Assembly: GCA_902796305.1 (NCBI GenBank)
Contig: CADBOJ010000115.1
Span: 1-39,161, forward strand
Origin: an uncultured bacterium
GTDB taxonomy: Bacteria; Cyanobacteriota; Vampirovibrionia; Gastranaerophilales; Gastranaerophilaceae
DNA: 39,161 nt
Direction of reading: 5' to 3'
This document shows positions 9,735 through 33,491 of the stretch, in pieces (positions within the stretch are counted from its first letter, which is position 1; the number at the start of each line of letters is the position of its first letter). A model generated the notes under the pieces. It did no database searches and was not told where the DNA came from. It saw only the letters and a list, made by a program, of their open reading frames with translations. The translations under genes were made by a program, and so were the position numbers.

Positions 9735-10595
9735 TTATATTTTTGCTTTTTCTAACTCTATACCTTGTTTAATAAGATTGCATTTTGTTTCATCGCATCT
9801 TTTTTCTTCTTGTTTATAAATTCTTGTTCTGTTTATCACTTCATCAAAATCTATTTGATGAGCGTCAAAATCAGGACCGTCAACGCAAGCAAATTTAACC
9901 TTTCCGCCAACAGTAAGTCTGCAAGCCCCGCACATACCAGTTCCGTCTACCATAATCGGATTCATTGAAGCTTCGGTTTTAATTCCGTACGGTCTTGTTA
10001 ATTCGGCAACCGCTCTCATCATGGGCATTGGACCTACCGCAATAACGTAATCTACTTTTTCTTTGTCCATAATTTCTTTTGCAACATTTGTTGTAAAGCC
10101 TTTTATGCCGTAGCTTCCGTCATCCGTTGTTATATGGAGTTCCGTTACTGCTTTTCTCATTTTATCTTCCCAGAAGATTAAGTCTTTTGTTCTTGCTCCC
10201 ATTACCATATGAACTTTGTTTCCCGCATCTTTGAATGCTTTTGCAATTAAATAACAGGGAGCTGCTCCATAACCTCCCGCAACACAAATAACAGTTCCGT
10301 AATTTTCAATATGCGTCGGCATACCCAGAGGCCCTGCGATATCCTCTATAAAATCTCCAACATCAAGATTTGCAAGTTTTTTTGTAGTGTAGCCTACTGC
10401 CATATATACTATGGTAAGGATTTCATTTTGCCTGTCATAGTCTGCTATTGTGAGCGGTATTCTTTCCGAGTTTTTATCGGTTCTTAAGATGATAAACTGC
10501 CCTGCTTTAGCATTTCTTGTAATAAAAGGAGCATGTACTTTTATCTCGTATTGATTTTTACACAATTCTTTTTTATATAAAATTTCGTATCCCAT
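9735..10595 (-). CDS. NfnA/SudB-like FAD/[2Fe-2S] NAD(P)H-ferredoxin reductase subunit
   Basis: 286 residues. The N-terminal FAD-binding barrel carries RIPLTI (45-50), the NAD-binding half carries CVAGGYGAAPCYL (104-116), and the C-terminus has a [2Fe-2S] site with C222, C225 and C237 (GTGMCGACR, KFACVDGP). In the homologous sulfide dehydrogenase SudB the fourth cluster ligand is an Asp. D217 just before GTGMC is a candidate here. The family includes the small subunit of NADH-dependent ferredoxin:NADP+ reductase (NfnA) and PyrK-like subunits. The usual partner NfnB/GltA is not next to it, which is unusual, so the working complex must be completed from another locus. AGAGGA lies about 7 nt before the ATG. 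First gene of the operon ending with dacB. Confidence 0.85.
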   Translation of the reverse strand: MGYEILYKKELCKNQYEIKVHAPFITRNAKAGQFIILRTDKNSERIPLTIADYDRQNEILTIVYMAVGYTTKKLANLDVGDFIEDIAGPLGMPTHIENYGTVICVAGGYGAAPCYLIAKAFKDAGNKVHMVMGARTKDLIFWEDKMRKAVTELHITTDDGSYGIKGFTTNVAKEIMDKEKVDYVIAVGPMPMMRAVAELTRPYGIKTEASMNPIMVDGTGMCGACRLTVGGKVKFACVDGPDFDAHQIDFDEVINRTRIYKQEEKRCDETKCNLIKQGIELEKAKI

Positions 10596-11957: not shown

Positions 11958-11980
11958 AAAAAGAAGATTGTCTTTAATCT
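11956..11980 (-). terminator. Weak intrinsic terminator after the acyl-ACP thioesterase gene
   Basis: On the minus strand AGATT (11976-11980 complement) pairs with AATCT (11965-11969 complement) around a 6-nt loop, followed by TCTTTTTTT. The stem is short and contains the stop codon, and it lies just upstream of the tyrS -35 box. Confidence 0.4.
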
Positions 11981-12758
11981 ATTTTCTTACGGCAAGGTTG
12001 CAATCCGTTATTTTGTTTCTTTTACTGCATTCTTCCCAGCGGGTTATAACTTCACAGACAGACACGTTATTTTTTGTGATTTTATGAAAATATGAATTTG
12101 AAGCCCCTGTTTTATATGCAATACAGGTTAAAATATCTCCAAGATAGCTTTCTTTATTGTATTTTACGCTAAGTTTTTTTAGAACATGGCTGTTTTTAAA
12201 ATTTTCATCTGCGGTTGTTTCAACTAAATTCAGGTAGCTTTTATTGTTGACATGATTATTGAAATCTATATCGCTAAGATTTGTTTGATGAACAACGGAA
12301 GTTATTTCTTCTTTTAAGTCCGGCAGGGTAAATTTTTTATGTTCACCAAGAGAATATTCTTCTGTTGTTTTAATATTGTCAAACAGACGGGCTGTTGTAT
12401 GCGGTCTTTTTGTATTACTGTTTAATATAAACGAGCAGGCATCGCCTGAAGCAAATATCTTTCCGTTATGTTTTAATTCAAAATCTGAGTATATTTTTAA
12501 TTTTGAAACCTCTGAAAGCCAAGAAGCTACTTCAATTTCCTCTGACCAGAAAGGAAGTTCGTCTTTAAATTCTATATTAAAGCCTGCTATAACCCAGTAT
12601 AAATCTTTATCCGCTATATCAAATGCTGCCAGATTGTTTTTTGTCATATACCTTGCAAAGCAATCCTGAAAATACATAATAACAGATATTGGTCTTAATC
12701 TGTAATTTATATCCATTGCATCATTTGTTATTATGTAATTTTGAATATACTTAGACAT
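11979..12758 (-). CDS. Acyl-ACP thioesterase (double hotdog, PF01643 type)
   Basis: 259 residues, typical for bacterial acyl-ACP thioesterases, which release free fatty acids from acyl-carrier protein in the cytosol. The N-terminal hotdog contains MDINYRLRPISVIMYFQD and DLYWVIAGFNIEF. The C-terminal hotdog starts at about 150 with the catalytic DxNxH motif as D165, N167, H169 in LSDIDFNNHVNN, and a downstream acidic residue at E180. No signal peptide. GGAG lies about 9 nt before the ATG. It stands alone between tyrS and a hypothetical gene. Free fatty acid release by a gut anaerobe may serve membrane turnover or export, but nothing here tells which. Confidence 0.88.
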   Translation of the reverse strand: MSKYIQNYIITNDAMDINYRLRPISVIMYFQDCFARYMTKNNLAAFDIADKDLYWVIAGFNIEFKDELPFWSEEIEVASWLSEVSKLKIYSDFELKHNGKIFASGDACSFILNSNTKRPHTTARLFDNIKTTEEYSLGEHKKFTLPDLKEEITSVVHQTNLSDIDFNNHVNNKSYLNLVETTADENFKNSHVLKKLSVKYNKESYLGDILTCIAYKTGASNSYFHKITKNNVSVCEVITRWEECSKRNKITDCNLAVRK

Positions 12759-12806
12759 TTTGTATGCTCCGTAAATGTGTTTGTTTTAAATATTAACATG
12801 AAAAAA

Positions 12807-13421
12807 CTAATCGTTTAGCTTATTAATATCAACTATTACTTTTTCTAATTCCTCCTCGGAATTTGCTCTCCATTCTGTTTGAGGCTTTCCGTCAATAATA
12901 GAATGAAATTTTTCATCTAAAATTTGGGACAATTTTGCAAATTCTCTTAAAGTGTCAGATATCTTGTCGTTGGTTTTTTCATACATTTTTGATGCTTTTC
13001 GCTCAAGTTTTTTCATATTTATCCAGCTAAATGCTTTTAATACTTTATTTTTTTCTTCACCCGTAAGAACATAAAATTTGTAGCTGTCTTCGCTTTCAGG
13101 CAGGGTTATGGGTGTTTTTGTATGTAAATAAAGCCAGCTTGCATCAATGTGAGAGGGCTTGTATTTTGGTAAAACCTGACAAATAGTATCATATCCCGGG
13201 CTTTCCAATACGTCATATACTTTTATGGCTTTTGCAGTCTGCAATTTAAGTCCTATTTTTTCTTTAAGGCTGTATTTATTATTTTTTTCAAGCGCTTCGC
13301 ATGCTATGTCATTGAATTTTATTGTGCAATCCTCGATAGAAGAATCTTTAAATACACCTTTTGGAACTCTAACAATATGTACACCGCTAAATGTTTGCGG
13401 ATTGATTTTACCTATTTGCAT
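12807..13421 (-). CDS. Hypothetical protein with N-terminal TFSG motif, lineage-type
   Basis: 204 residues, not matched to any family I know. It opens MQIGKINPQTFSGVHIVRVP, a short N-terminal F-x-G motif that I associate with lineage-specific proteins of Gastranaerophilales. Similar wording occurs in the 516-aa gene at 23842-25392 (KPFFKG). The rest is soluble and charged, with a long helical stretch near residues 130-200 (LERKASKMYEKTNDK, then EELEKVIVDINKL), possibly a coiled coil. No signal peptide or membrane helix. It has its own TATAAT-containing leader and an AGGGA site before the ATG. Real gene by length, codon pattern and start signals. Function unknown. Confidence 0.65.
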   Translation of the reverse strand: MQIGKINPQTFSGVHIVRVPKGVFKDSSIEDCTIKFNDIACEALEKNNKYSLKEKIGLKLQTAKAIKVYDVLESPGYDTICQVLPKYKPSHIDASWLYLHTKTPITLPESEDSYKFYVLTGEEKNKVLKAFSWINMKKLERKASKMYEKTNDKISDTLREFAKLSQILDEKFHSIIDGKPQTEWRANSEEELEKVIVDINKLND

Positions 13422-23841: not shown

Positions 23842-25392
23842 TTATTCTTCTTCTGTACTTTTAAAATTTTCCAATAGTTTCTTTATTGTACTTAAGTTCA
23901 CAGTAACTTCGCCATTTCTGTTACTTGATGTTTCCATTTTGTTTGCAGATATAAATATATATCCGTTTACAGGTTTTAAGATATTATGTTCAAGCTGGTA
24001 TCGTATTTTTTGTACGGGTATACCAAGTTCTTCTGCAGCCTGATTTTTATTGTAGCATTTTTTATATTCGCCTTTTTCATTAACGGCATAGAAAAATTTA
24101 CTGTTTGCCCATTTTTGCATTATTTCAATGATTGCCGTATCGATTATTCTGTTGCCGTCAACATCTTCTCTTTCAATCATATCGGAATAAGCAAATGAAA
24201 AACCTTTTGTGGCATTTGGAGTATTAACAACCCGTTTTATTGTTTGTGCACATATTCCAAGCTCATCTGCCGCAATAAATACACTCGGATATTTTGTATA
24301 ATTTCCGCTGCTGTCAATTGTATAAACGGGTTTATTGCCGATTCTAAGCGATTTTTCGATTATTTTTTCCATTTTATTTTTGTCTAAAATAATATCGCCG
24401 TCTTTATCCTTTTGTTCCACTTCATTAGCATATACGAATATATATTTTCCGGTTGTTTTTGCGCCTTTTCTTAAGACTTCGCCTATACTCTTTTCTGAAA
24501 TTCCTAGTGTTTCAGAAGCTTCAACGGTGCTTGCAAATCTTTGATATTCGCCGTTTATTTTAAGTGCATATATTGCAGCTTTTCTTTTGGGTATCCTTTC
24601 CGTAAGTAGTTTTTCTATTTTATCGCTGTCAACAATTACTTTTCCGCCTTCTAATCTTGTTTCGACTTTTCCTGCACCTGCGACTACTTTACCGCTAACG
24701 GTTTTAAGGTCTCCTCCAATAGCGTAATTAATTGACTGATATGATACGCCGAGATATTCTCCTGCTTCTTGCTGATTAGCAAATGTTTTATAATTTCCGT
24801 CTTCAGAGATTACATAAATCGGCTTTTTTCTTTTTGTAAATGCTTCGTTTAAGATACTCTCAACTTTGGATTTGTTTAGACTTATATTTCCATCCTCATC
24901 TTTTTCTTCTACATTTTTTGCAGGTATAAATATGTATCCGTTCAGGTCTTTTACGTTTTTTTCCGTATATTTGATTTTTGAACTTTTTACACCTAGAACT
25001 TCTGACACCTCGTTTCTGCTTTTGTATTTTTTATAACTGCCGTCGTATCTGAATGCATATATGGATTCTTTTTTGTTGTCTTTTTCTGCGTTTTTAATTA
25101 TTTCTTGGATTGTATCGAAATCTGCCGTGTCACCCTCGTATTTTTCAATTTTGCTTGCAGGAACAAAAATTAGTCCTGCTGTTTTTTTTCTTGAACCTGC
25201 CACCACCTGACTAATAGAATTTTTAAGCGCTCCGAACACCCTTGCGGCAATGTTTTGGCTGTCCAATCTCATATAATTGCCATAAGAATCAATTACATAG
25301 ACGGGATTTTTTTTGCCTTTAAAAAACGGTTTTGTAATATTATTTTGATTTTGTCTTATGTTTATTGCTTGATAAACCGGAAAAATACGCAT
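23842..25392 (-). CDS. Six-repeat NUMOD1-like (putative DNA-binding) protein
   Basis: 516 residues built of six units beginning at residues 31, 111, 192, 274, 356 and 434 (78-82 residues apart). Each unit opens with a strand-turn (YVIDSYGNY, YAFRYDGSY, YVISEDGNY, YALKINGEY, YTIDSSGNY, YAVNEKGEY), then a helix-turn-helix-like stretch such as EASETLGISEKSIGEVLRKG, then a GYIFI-type strand and an acidic linker with DxDG-IxLD. This is the layout of NUMOD1-type helix-turn-helix modules found beside homing nucleases, but no nuclease motif is present. The N-terminus includes KPFFKG, like the F-x-G motif of the 204-aa protein at 12807. No signal peptide. Function unknown; a DNA- or RNA-binding array is the best guess. 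Confidence 0.65.
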   Translation of the reverse strand: MRIFPVYQAINIRQNQNNITKPFFKGKKNPVYVIDSYGNYMRLDSQNIAARVFGALKNSISQVVAGSRKKTAGLIFVPASKIEKYEGDTADFDTIQEIIKNAEKDNKKESIYAFRYDGSYKKYKSRNEVSEVLGVKSSKIKYTEKNVKDLNGYIFIPAKNVEEKDEDGNISLNKSKVESILNEAFTKRKKPIYVISEDGNYKTFANQQEAGEYLGVSYQSINYAIGGDLKTVSGKVVAGAGKVETRLEGGKVIVDSDKIEKLLTERIPKRKAAIYALKINGEYQRFASTVEASETLGISEKSIGEVLRKGAKTTGKYIFVYANEVEQKDKDGDIILDKNKMEKIIEKSLRIGNKPVYTIDSSGNYTKYPSVFIAADELGICAQTIKRVVNTPNATKGFSFAYSDMIEREDVDGNRIIDTAIIEIMQKWANSKFFYAVNEKGEYKKCYNKNQAAEELGIPVQKIRYQLEHNILKPVNGYIFISANKMETSSNRNGEVTVNLSTIKKLLENFKSTEEE

Positions 25393-25479
25393 TTTTATGC
25401 CTTTCTTTGACTTTTAATTTGGGGTTTTAATAATTACAAAACCAATAAAAAAATTATGTTGCTAAAACTTTATACTAAG

Positions 25480-31153: not shown

Positions 31154-31948
31154 ATGAATAACGAAAAATCAGCAATGACCATTGCGATATTAATTTTGCT
31201 TGTTATATTTATTGTTTGGTGCAATCCGATTGCAATTGTCGGTGTCGGTGAACGTGGTGTTAAAGTTACATTGGGTAAGGTTTCTCCTAAGAGTTATTCC
31301 GAAGGTATCCATTTTGTAACACCTTTTATTTCTAAAATTAAAGCAATGGATGTTAAAACTCAAAAATGGGAAACGGCAACCGAAGTTTATACAAAAGATA
31401 TTCAGCAGGCAAAAATTAAATATGTGACAAACTATAATCTTCAGCCCGAAAATGTACATAAAATGTATAGAGAGGTCGGCTCTAATTATGTTGAAACCAT
31501 ACTTCTTCCTGCAATAGAAGGTAATATTAAAGATGTTATAGGTAAATGGAACGCTCAAGACCTTGTTGCAAACAGAGCAAATGCAACCTATGAAATATTA
31601 TCAAAACTTCAAAACCAATTAAAAGACAGATATATTAACGTAACTTCTTTTCAAATTATTGATATAAATTATTCAGAGGTATTTGAAAAGGCAATTGAAT
31701 CAAAAGTAACGGCAGAGCAGGAAGCTCTTAAAGCTAAAAATAAAACTGTTCAAATTGAAGAAGAAGCAAAACAAAAGTTAATTTCTGCTGAAGCTGAAGC
31801 AAAATCAATGAAAATCAGGGCAACGGCGCTGACTCAGAATAAAGCACTTGTTGAATATGAAGCAGTACAGAAGTGGGATGGAAAATTACCCGAATATATG
31901 CTGGGTAACAGTGTTCCTTTTGTGAATATGGCAGCTAAGACAAAATAA
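31154..31948 (+). CDS. SPFH/prohibitin-family membrane protein (HflC-like)
   Basis: 264 residues. One N-terminal membrane helix (about 8-23) is followed by the SPFH/Band 7 domain: GVGERGVKVTLGKV, EGIHFVTPFISK and VKTQKWETATEVYTKD, then YVETILLPAIEG. A helical tail (about 185-240, EQEALKAKNKTVQIEEEAKQ) is typical of oligomerising prohibitin and HflC-like proteins. Such proteins form large membrane rings and often regulate proteases like FtsH or organise membrane domains. No FtsH or HflK gene is nearby. AGGGAG precedes the ATG. Promoter signals lie upstream of the 63-aa gene. Confidence 0.88.
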   Translation: MNNEKSAMTIAILILLVIFIVWCNPIAIVGVGERGVKVTLGKVSPKSYSEGIHFVTPFISKIKAMDVKTQKWETATEVYTKDIQQAKIKYVTNYNLQPENVHKMYREVGSNYVETILLPAIEGNIKDVIGKWNAQDLVANRANATYEILSKLQNQLKDRYINVTSFQIIDINYSEVFEKAIESKVTAEQEALKAKNKTVQIEEEAKQKLISAEAEAKSMKIRATALTQNKALVEYEAVQKWDGKLPEYMLGNSVPFVNMAAKTK

Positions 31949-31963
31949 TAAGCAAAAGATAAT

Positions 31964-32104
31964 ATAAAAACACCCCTGCTTGCTTGAGAAGAGCTTTTAA
32001 CTCTTTCTCTTGACTTTCAATTACTCAAAAAAAGTAATTTCGAGTCAATGCAGACAAACAGGGATGTTTATATTGTTCAGACTGAAGTCGATATCAACTT
32101 CGCT
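31964..32104 (-). ncRNA. Candidate structured small RNA with a 15-bp closing stem and three-way junction
   Basis: On the minus strand a TATAAT at 32111-32116 predicts a start near 32104. The RNA begins with a near-palindromic hairpin (32084-32101). A 15-bp stem then closes the body: 32055-32069 pairs with 31968-31982 without mismatch, using two G-U pairs that exist only in the minus-strand RNA. Inside are two hairpins: one of 6+7 bp (TTGACT/AGTCAA, then AATTACT/AGTAATT) at 32010-32048, and one of about 8 bp at 31986-32009. The stem ends in GTTTTTAT, so it can also terminate. It lies between the convergent SPFH and pilC-like genes. No known RNA family is recognised; a 6S-like role cannot be excluded. 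Confidence 0.6.
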
Positions 32105-32110
32105 GACTCT

Positions 32111-32116
32111 ATTATA
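32111..32116 (-). promoter_or_regulatory. -10 box of the candidate RNA at 31964-32104
   Basis: TATAAT on the minus strand, about 7 nt before the predicted RNA start. The -35 region is poor. The remaining 32117-32270 is AT-rich with no gene seen. Confidence 0.45.
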
Positions 32117-32270
32117 ATGCCAAGTTCTTTTGAATATATAACAATATAATCAAAAATATTAAGTTATATTACAAAATAATGCTGTAATGAATCCAAAAAA
32201 GTACACAGAAAGCTAATACCCGATACAAAAACTATTGGATTATTTTAAACAACTTCAACTTTTGGGTTTT

Positions 32271-33491
32271 TTATGTTTGGTATGCTTGGAATAGAGGCAA
32301 GTAAAGAGCTAAGCCTAAAAGACCAACTATACCCCCGATAAATATCATAAGCATAGGTTCAATCAGTTTTGTAAACGCATCAATCGTTGCATCCAGCTTT
32401 TTATCGATAAATGAACCGCAGTGGAATAATGAATCACCAAGACGACCTGATTGTTCACCTGTTGCAATCATGAATGTCATCATATTCGGTACTTGGCTTA
32501 CGGCTCTAAGAGCAACCGAAAGATGCGTACCTTGTTGAACTTTAGCTGCTACATCTTTTATTGCATTTCTTAAAACGAAATTATCCATTGTTAAATTAGC
32601 TAACGCCAAACAGTCAATGATCGGAATACCTGCTTCATAAGATACTTGTAAAACCGCAATAAAGTTAGAGAAGTTTGAAAATCTCATCATTTCCGATAAC
32701 ATCGGCAGTCTTAATACGATTTTATCAATAATTTGCCTTACGTCATCCCTTTGATAAAGTTTAAAGCACCCAATCGGAACAAATATAAGTGCCGCAACAA
32801 CAACAGGCCAATAATTTTTCATAAATACACCCATATTCATGCAGGCTTTTGTTATCGGGGGCAACGGTTTGCCGAGATTATTAAACATTTCATCAAATGC
32901 AGGGAATACAAATATTAACATTACAAGAATTGCAATAAATGCCAATGCTACAACAACAGATGGATAAATAAGTGCGCCTATTACCTTGCCTTTAACATTT
33001 TCCTGCTTCTTTAATAATTCAAGCATACGGCTTAGTGTTTTATCGAGTTCCCCTGAATCTTCACCGGCTTTAACAAGACCAATATAAACCTTTCCGAATA
33101 TATGACGGTATTTTTCAAGAGTTTCGCCGAGTGTTGAACCGTCTATGATTTGTTTTCTGAAATCATGTGTAATTTTTCTGATTTTCATTGAATCGGAATT
33201 TTGTTCAACGAATAATAACGCTTCAATAATCGGAATACCTGTAGAAGTTAATATCTCAAGTGTTGAGGTAAAATCTATTTTTTCTCTCAAACTTAAAGCG
33301 CCAACCGTTTTTGCTGTGCGTTTGCTGTCGGATTTTTTATCTGATTTACTACCGCTTGAGTCCACAACAAGTGTAGGAACTAAGCCCATTTCACGAATTT
33401 TTTTTCTTGCATCTGACGGGCTTAATGCTTCAACTTTCCCTGAAACTTGAATTTTGTTATTTTTTAAAGCGTTATATGCATATGTACTCAT
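32271..33491 (-). CDS. Type IV pilus/type II secretion inner-membrane platform protein (PilC/GspF)
   Basis: 406 residues. A cytoplasmic start (TYAYNALKNNKIQVSGKVEA) leads to two GspF domains (about 70-190 and 270-395). FTSTLEILTSTGIPIIEAL and GEDSGELDKTLSRM are in the first, and FSNFIAVLQVSYEAGIPIID and GEQSGRLGDSLFHC in the second. Three membrane helices lie near 165-190, 220-245 and 370-395. It anchors the assembly ATPase and moves pilin subunits. The ATG is 1 nt from the ATPase stop. Last gene of the operon. No pilin, prepilin peptidase or PilMNO gene lies in this window. Confidence 0.95.
   Translation of the reverse strand: MSTYAYNALKNNKIQVSGKVEALSPSDARKKIREMGLVPTLVVDSSGSKSDKKSDSKRTAKTVGALSLREKIDFTSTLEILTSTGIPIIEALLFVEQNSDSMKIRKITHDFRKQIIDGSTLGETLEKYRHIFGKVYIGLVKAGEDSGELDKTLSRMLELLKKQENVKGKVIGALIYPSVVVALAFIAILVMLIFVFPAFDEMFNNLGKPLPPITKACMNMGVFMKNYWPVVVAALIFVPIGCFKLYQRDDVRQIIDKIVLRLPMLSEMMRFSNFSNFIAVLQVSYEAGIPIIDCLALANLTMDNFVLRNAIKDVAAKVQQGTHLSVALRAVSQVPNMMTFMIATGEQSGRLGDSLFHCGSFIDKKLDATIDAFTKLIEPMLMIFIGGIVGLLGLALYLPLFQAYQT

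Follow-up and report, generated by a model that had tools for sequence, protein, structure and literature searches.

A branched, stably folded element between convergent SPFH and pilC-like genes of a Gastranaerophilales genome, probably a lineage-specific intrinsic terminator

Introduction

The loop of an intrinsic terminator is typically short (3–10 nt), although this is not strictly required. Terminators common to two convergent genes have been described, and G-U pairs are frequent intermediates in their evolution (PMC5381666). The element analysed here lies between two convergent genes in a window of 39,161 nucleotides, the window being the whole stretch of DNA that was analysed, from a gut Gastranaerophilales genome. 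Like the described terminators of convergent genes, it has a stem close after a stop codon and U-rich tails. It differs from them in that the short loop is replaced by a 71-nt apex of two hairpins, enclosed by a 16-bp stem, and in that the stem carries mismatches and the U-tract is weak on the plus strand. Another structured RNA of comparable overall length, with a similarly long closing stem, is 6S RNA (RF00013). However, the element has no large central bubble, and even the nearest relative, referred to below as G014, lacks it. No match to the 6S family was found at the element or elsewhere in the genome, and this assignment was rejected.

Results

The locus and the fold of its minus strand

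The convergent intergenic region is 322 bp long (31949–32270), with an SPFH-domain gene reading into it on the plus strand and a pilC/gspF-like gene on the minus strand. The names of the latter gene and of its operon follow the original prediction. GTDB relatives of the SPFH gene are assigned to Candidatus Gastranaerophilales, Melainabacteria or Scatousia. A coding explanation of the region was rejected, as it holds only chance frames of 33–35 aa and has no translated similarity to neighbouring loci. The features are as follows.

31154–31948, plus strand: SPFH-domain gene (name from the original prediction), with its stop 20 nt before the closing stem
31957–31970, minus strand: U-rich tail after the stem, TTTTTATATTATC
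31968–31983, minus strand: closing stem, 3' arm, partner of 32054–32069
31986–32009, minus strand: second inner hairpin, 10 pairs with one bulge
32010–32048, minus strand: first inner hairpin, 14 pairs (6 + 8 around a 3x3 internal loop)
32054–32069, minus strand: closing stem, 5' arm, 16 bp, three of whose pairs are U-G
32067–32078, plus strand: weaker U-rich tail, TTTATATTGTTC, on the side where the SPFH transcript leaves the stem
32077–32106, minus strand: 5' hairpin, including the near-palindrome GAAGTTGATATCGACTTC
32111–32116, minus strand: TATAAT, a candidate -10 box; no -35 box is recognisable
32271–33491, minus strand: pilC/gspF-like gene, final member of a gspD-pilB-pilC-like operon that converges on the SPFH gene

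Refolding reproduces the architecture of the original prediction, in which two inner hairpins form a three-way junction with a closing stem and a further hairpin lies on the 5' side, and revises several of its details. The closing stem is positioned and paired as described and is 16 bp long, not 15, and the inner hairpins have 14 and 10 pairs, compared to about 13 and 8 bp. The G-U pairs of the stem are indeed U-G on the minus strand, but there are three of them rather than two (32064–31973, 32058–31979 and 32054–31983). Past a T/T mismatch the stem continues for 3 more bp, and the 110-nt core has 43 pairs in all, made up of the 16-bp closing stem, the 3-bp extension and the 14-pair and 10-pair hairpins. 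The 5' hairpin is a tentative member of this unit. Within the hairpin, positions 32082–32099 form a near-perfect 18-bp palindrome, which gives an RNA hairpin and could also be a protein-binding site.

The minimum free energy of the minus strand over 171 nt is -57.4 kcal/mol, where shuffles average -32.2 (z -6.9; 0/200 shuffles), and that of the 149-nt unit is -55.9 kcal/mol, compared to -29.2 (z -7.0; 0/200 shuffles). A background of 865 kb (545 kb from the same genome, 320 kb from a congener) was scanned, in which intergenic sequence was delimited by gene calls from a crude longest-ORF rule. Since only a few intergenic 130-nt windows of this background are equally or more stable, and these lie mostly over tRNA genes, the fold is more than a product of chance. 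The element is the strongest non-tRNA case in which stability is high and a long closing helix encloses a multiloop. The RNA fold is genuine, and its stability very high. Two other loci of the same genome were noted. On contig C12, positions 1983–2072 of locus L106 hold a branched, stable minus-strand structure (-39 kcal/mol over 151 nt) right after a gene in a convergent region. On contig C85, the intact tRNA-His gene of locus L116 (10203–10276) is preceded, at a distance of about 100 bp, by an incomplete duplicate of the tRNA-His sequence (10090–10160).

Strand asymmetry and flanking signals

The plus strand folds as well (z -4.6), the 110-nt core reaching -44.3 kcal/mol on the minus strand and -31.3 kcal/mol on the plus strand. 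Five pairs that are U-G on the minus strand become A/C oppositions on the plus strand, and the internal loop has one C/A opposition that runs the opposite way. In a two-sided sign test, p is 0.25 within the closing stem (3 to 0); over all pairs it is 0.06 at 5 to 0, or 0.22 at 5 to 1. These values take no account of the strand having been picked for its stability. The G-U pairs had been put forward as an indication of both strand and selection. This argument is weak: the asymmetry is not significant and was counted after the stabler strand had been chosen; it is best described as suggestive.

The T-run noted at the end of the element is borne out by the U-rich minus-strand tail. The U-tract directly after the stem is present on the minus strand (TTTTTATATT) and weak on the plus strand (TTTATATTGTT). 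The TATAAT upstream of the element is also present as described, though a promoter scan found no acceptable -35 box to go with it, and 39 kb of the minus strand contain 37 copies of the hexamer.

Searches for homologues

The original prediction could name no family for the element, and Rfam, searched at gathering and permissive thresholds, likewise returned only chance matches below the cut-off. BLASTN against 97 related genomes recovered the window itself and otherwise only short AT-rich chance matches. A covariance model made from the single sequence and its structure was run on the window's own genome and 193 related genomes, where it recovered only the element itself (131.6 bits); all other matches scored at most 19 bits and were terminator-like hairpins. 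Applied to 70 SPFH loci from GTDB, the model returned, apart from the element, short hairpins only. There is no second copy in the same genome. The pattern of the stem arms had no match in 84,980 GTDB species or IMG/VR, from which the window's own species may be missing, and BLASTN gave no match in collections of phages and plasmids, which may also omit that species.

Judged from these sequence comparisons, a conserved, undescribed RNA family is not supported, as no homologues with conserved or covarying structure were found. The proposal of an undescribed structured RNA thus holds for the stable structure, and is supported in the sense of a terminator, but not for an RNA family. Lack of conservation in relatives, which the original prediction had named as refuting, was the outcome with both BLASTN and the covariance model, and the sequence that G014 has in this position is unrelated and holds a simple terminator.

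The corresponding region in related genomes

The contig of G014 is colinear with the window across about 37 kb at a DNA identity of 79–84%, and the PilC and SPFH proteins are 94% and 98% identical, respectively. It is the only relative in which an SPFH/pilC junction like that of the window was seen. The SPFH/pilC intergenic region is 4% identical between the two, compared to 64–93% for the other fully alignable intergenic regions, and the score of a forced alignment falls inside the shuffle range. It follows that one of the two lineages underwent a replacement or an insertion of sequence here. G014 has a simple terminator hairpin, AAACAGCCTC..GAGGCTGTTT, with A- and T-runs, at a distance of about 20 nt from its SPFH stop. 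As read from these sequences, the slot is retained between the window and G014 and the sequence in it is not. It should be mentioned that colinearity is also broken at two other places. Positions 11962–12819 of the window (~860 bp), which contain a minus-strand reading frame, correspond to ~54 bp in G014, through an insertion here or a deletion there, and ~500 bp at 24923–25420 are unalignable with the corresponding 587 bp of G014, a third break.

A wider set of 67 SPFH 3' flanks from Gastranaerophilales, consisting of the window and 66 GTDB loci, was examined for intrinsic terminators within 70 nt of the stop. A strict rule was preferred to a looser one, whose folding merged adjacent hairpins. 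Strict terminator hairpins are found in 38 of the 67 flanks, compared to 0.2 in dinucleotide shuffles; they start at a median of 22 nt after the stop and differ in sequence. The closing stem of the window begins at a similar distance, 20 nt, and its large branched apex keeps the strict rule from scoring it. A single long hairpin, flanked by A and tailed by T, is also common in convergent intergenic regions of the window's own genome and the congeneric one.

Discussion

We propose that the element is probably a branched, bidirectional intrinsic terminator, specific to its lineage, that serves the convergent SPFH gene and gspD-pilB-pilC operon. Such an elaborate lineage-specific terminator is suggested because it fits the position of the element, the situation in the relatives and the lack of conservation. 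Since the element occurs in one genome only and relatives have ordinary terminators at the same place, it is better viewed as a stop signal than as a new RNA family. Most likely, and with somewhat more confidence than doubt on our part, the closing stem and its U-tract act on transcripts from both sides. The SPFH transcript would be ended about 20–130 nt after its stop, and the transcript of the pilC operon, arriving from the opposite side, would be ended by the same stem. The two inner hairpins would fold first and draw the arms of the closing stem together, shortening the effective loop. The element is specific to the species or strain, and relatives fill the slot with unrelated simple terminator hairpins. 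Several observations do not fit this proposal well. A G+C-containing stem is present near the 3' end of a gene, but in place of a short loop there is a branched apex of about 70 nt, which is atypical, and standard terminator scans miss the element. No other non-tRNA structure of equal strength with a long closing stem was found in the 865 kb. In addition, the plus-strand fold is broken by mismatches, the plus-strand U-tract is weak, and the stem lies ~200 nt past the pilC stop.

The difference between the strands could instead reflect a minus-strand small RNA gene, an orphan, lineage-specific regulator that starts near 32104 from the TATAAT, with the 5' hairpin and three-way junction as its body and the closing stem and U-tract as its own terminator. 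The hexamer lies a few nucleotides ahead of the 5' hairpin, the fold is clearly more stable on the minus strand, which all five G-U pairs favor, and the stability is on par with that of tRNA genes of the genus. However, the hexamer is frequent on this strand and has no -35 match, the G-U asymmetry falls short of significance, about 190 related genomes contain no homologue, and G014 lacks the element; we regard a small RNA as unlikely, though worth keeping in mind. A narrower version, in which a recently arisen orphan RNA of ~140 nt was born from the terminator slot in one Gastranaerophilales lineage, with the expanded apex of the terminator as its body, seems to us rather doubtful.

The replacement of the intergenic sequence with respect to G014 would also be expected from a foreign insert, such as a non-autonomous, MITE-like mobile element with the closing stem as its terminal inverted repeats, and the extension of the stem does reach near-perfect ends, AATATAAA..CAYCCCTGYTTG. 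A MITE is expected to be present in multiple related copies, with inverted termini and duplicated target sites. The element, on the other hand, is single-copy, inspection by eye revealed no target-site duplication, its arm pair is unmatched in 84,980 GTDB species and IMG/VR, BLASTN matched it in none of the phages or plasmids searched, and the slot in G014 holds an unrelated terminator rather than an empty site, all of which make an insert of this kind improbable. The lack of conservation would likewise suit a non-functional structure, an inverted repeat that arose by chance or is decaying in rapidly evolving intergenic DNA. A z value near -7, which places the fold among the most stable intergenic ones in 865 kb, and the precise location at the terminator slot render this very improbable.

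With a terminator as the preferred reading, an orphan RNA-like fold between convergent genes is explicable by terminator turnover, in which the slot is kept and the sequence is swapped between close species. If the element turned out to be transcribed as a small RNA, a terminator would here have given rise to a new RNA.

A separate observation concerns terminators downstream of other SPFH genes. In many Gastranaerophilales (loci L153–L196), a recurrent terminator family, ATCCGCTTC..GAAGCGGAT followed by T6, lies about 30 nt downstream of the SPFH stop. The changes in its stem preserve pairing, which makes this family a handy positive control for terminator covariation.
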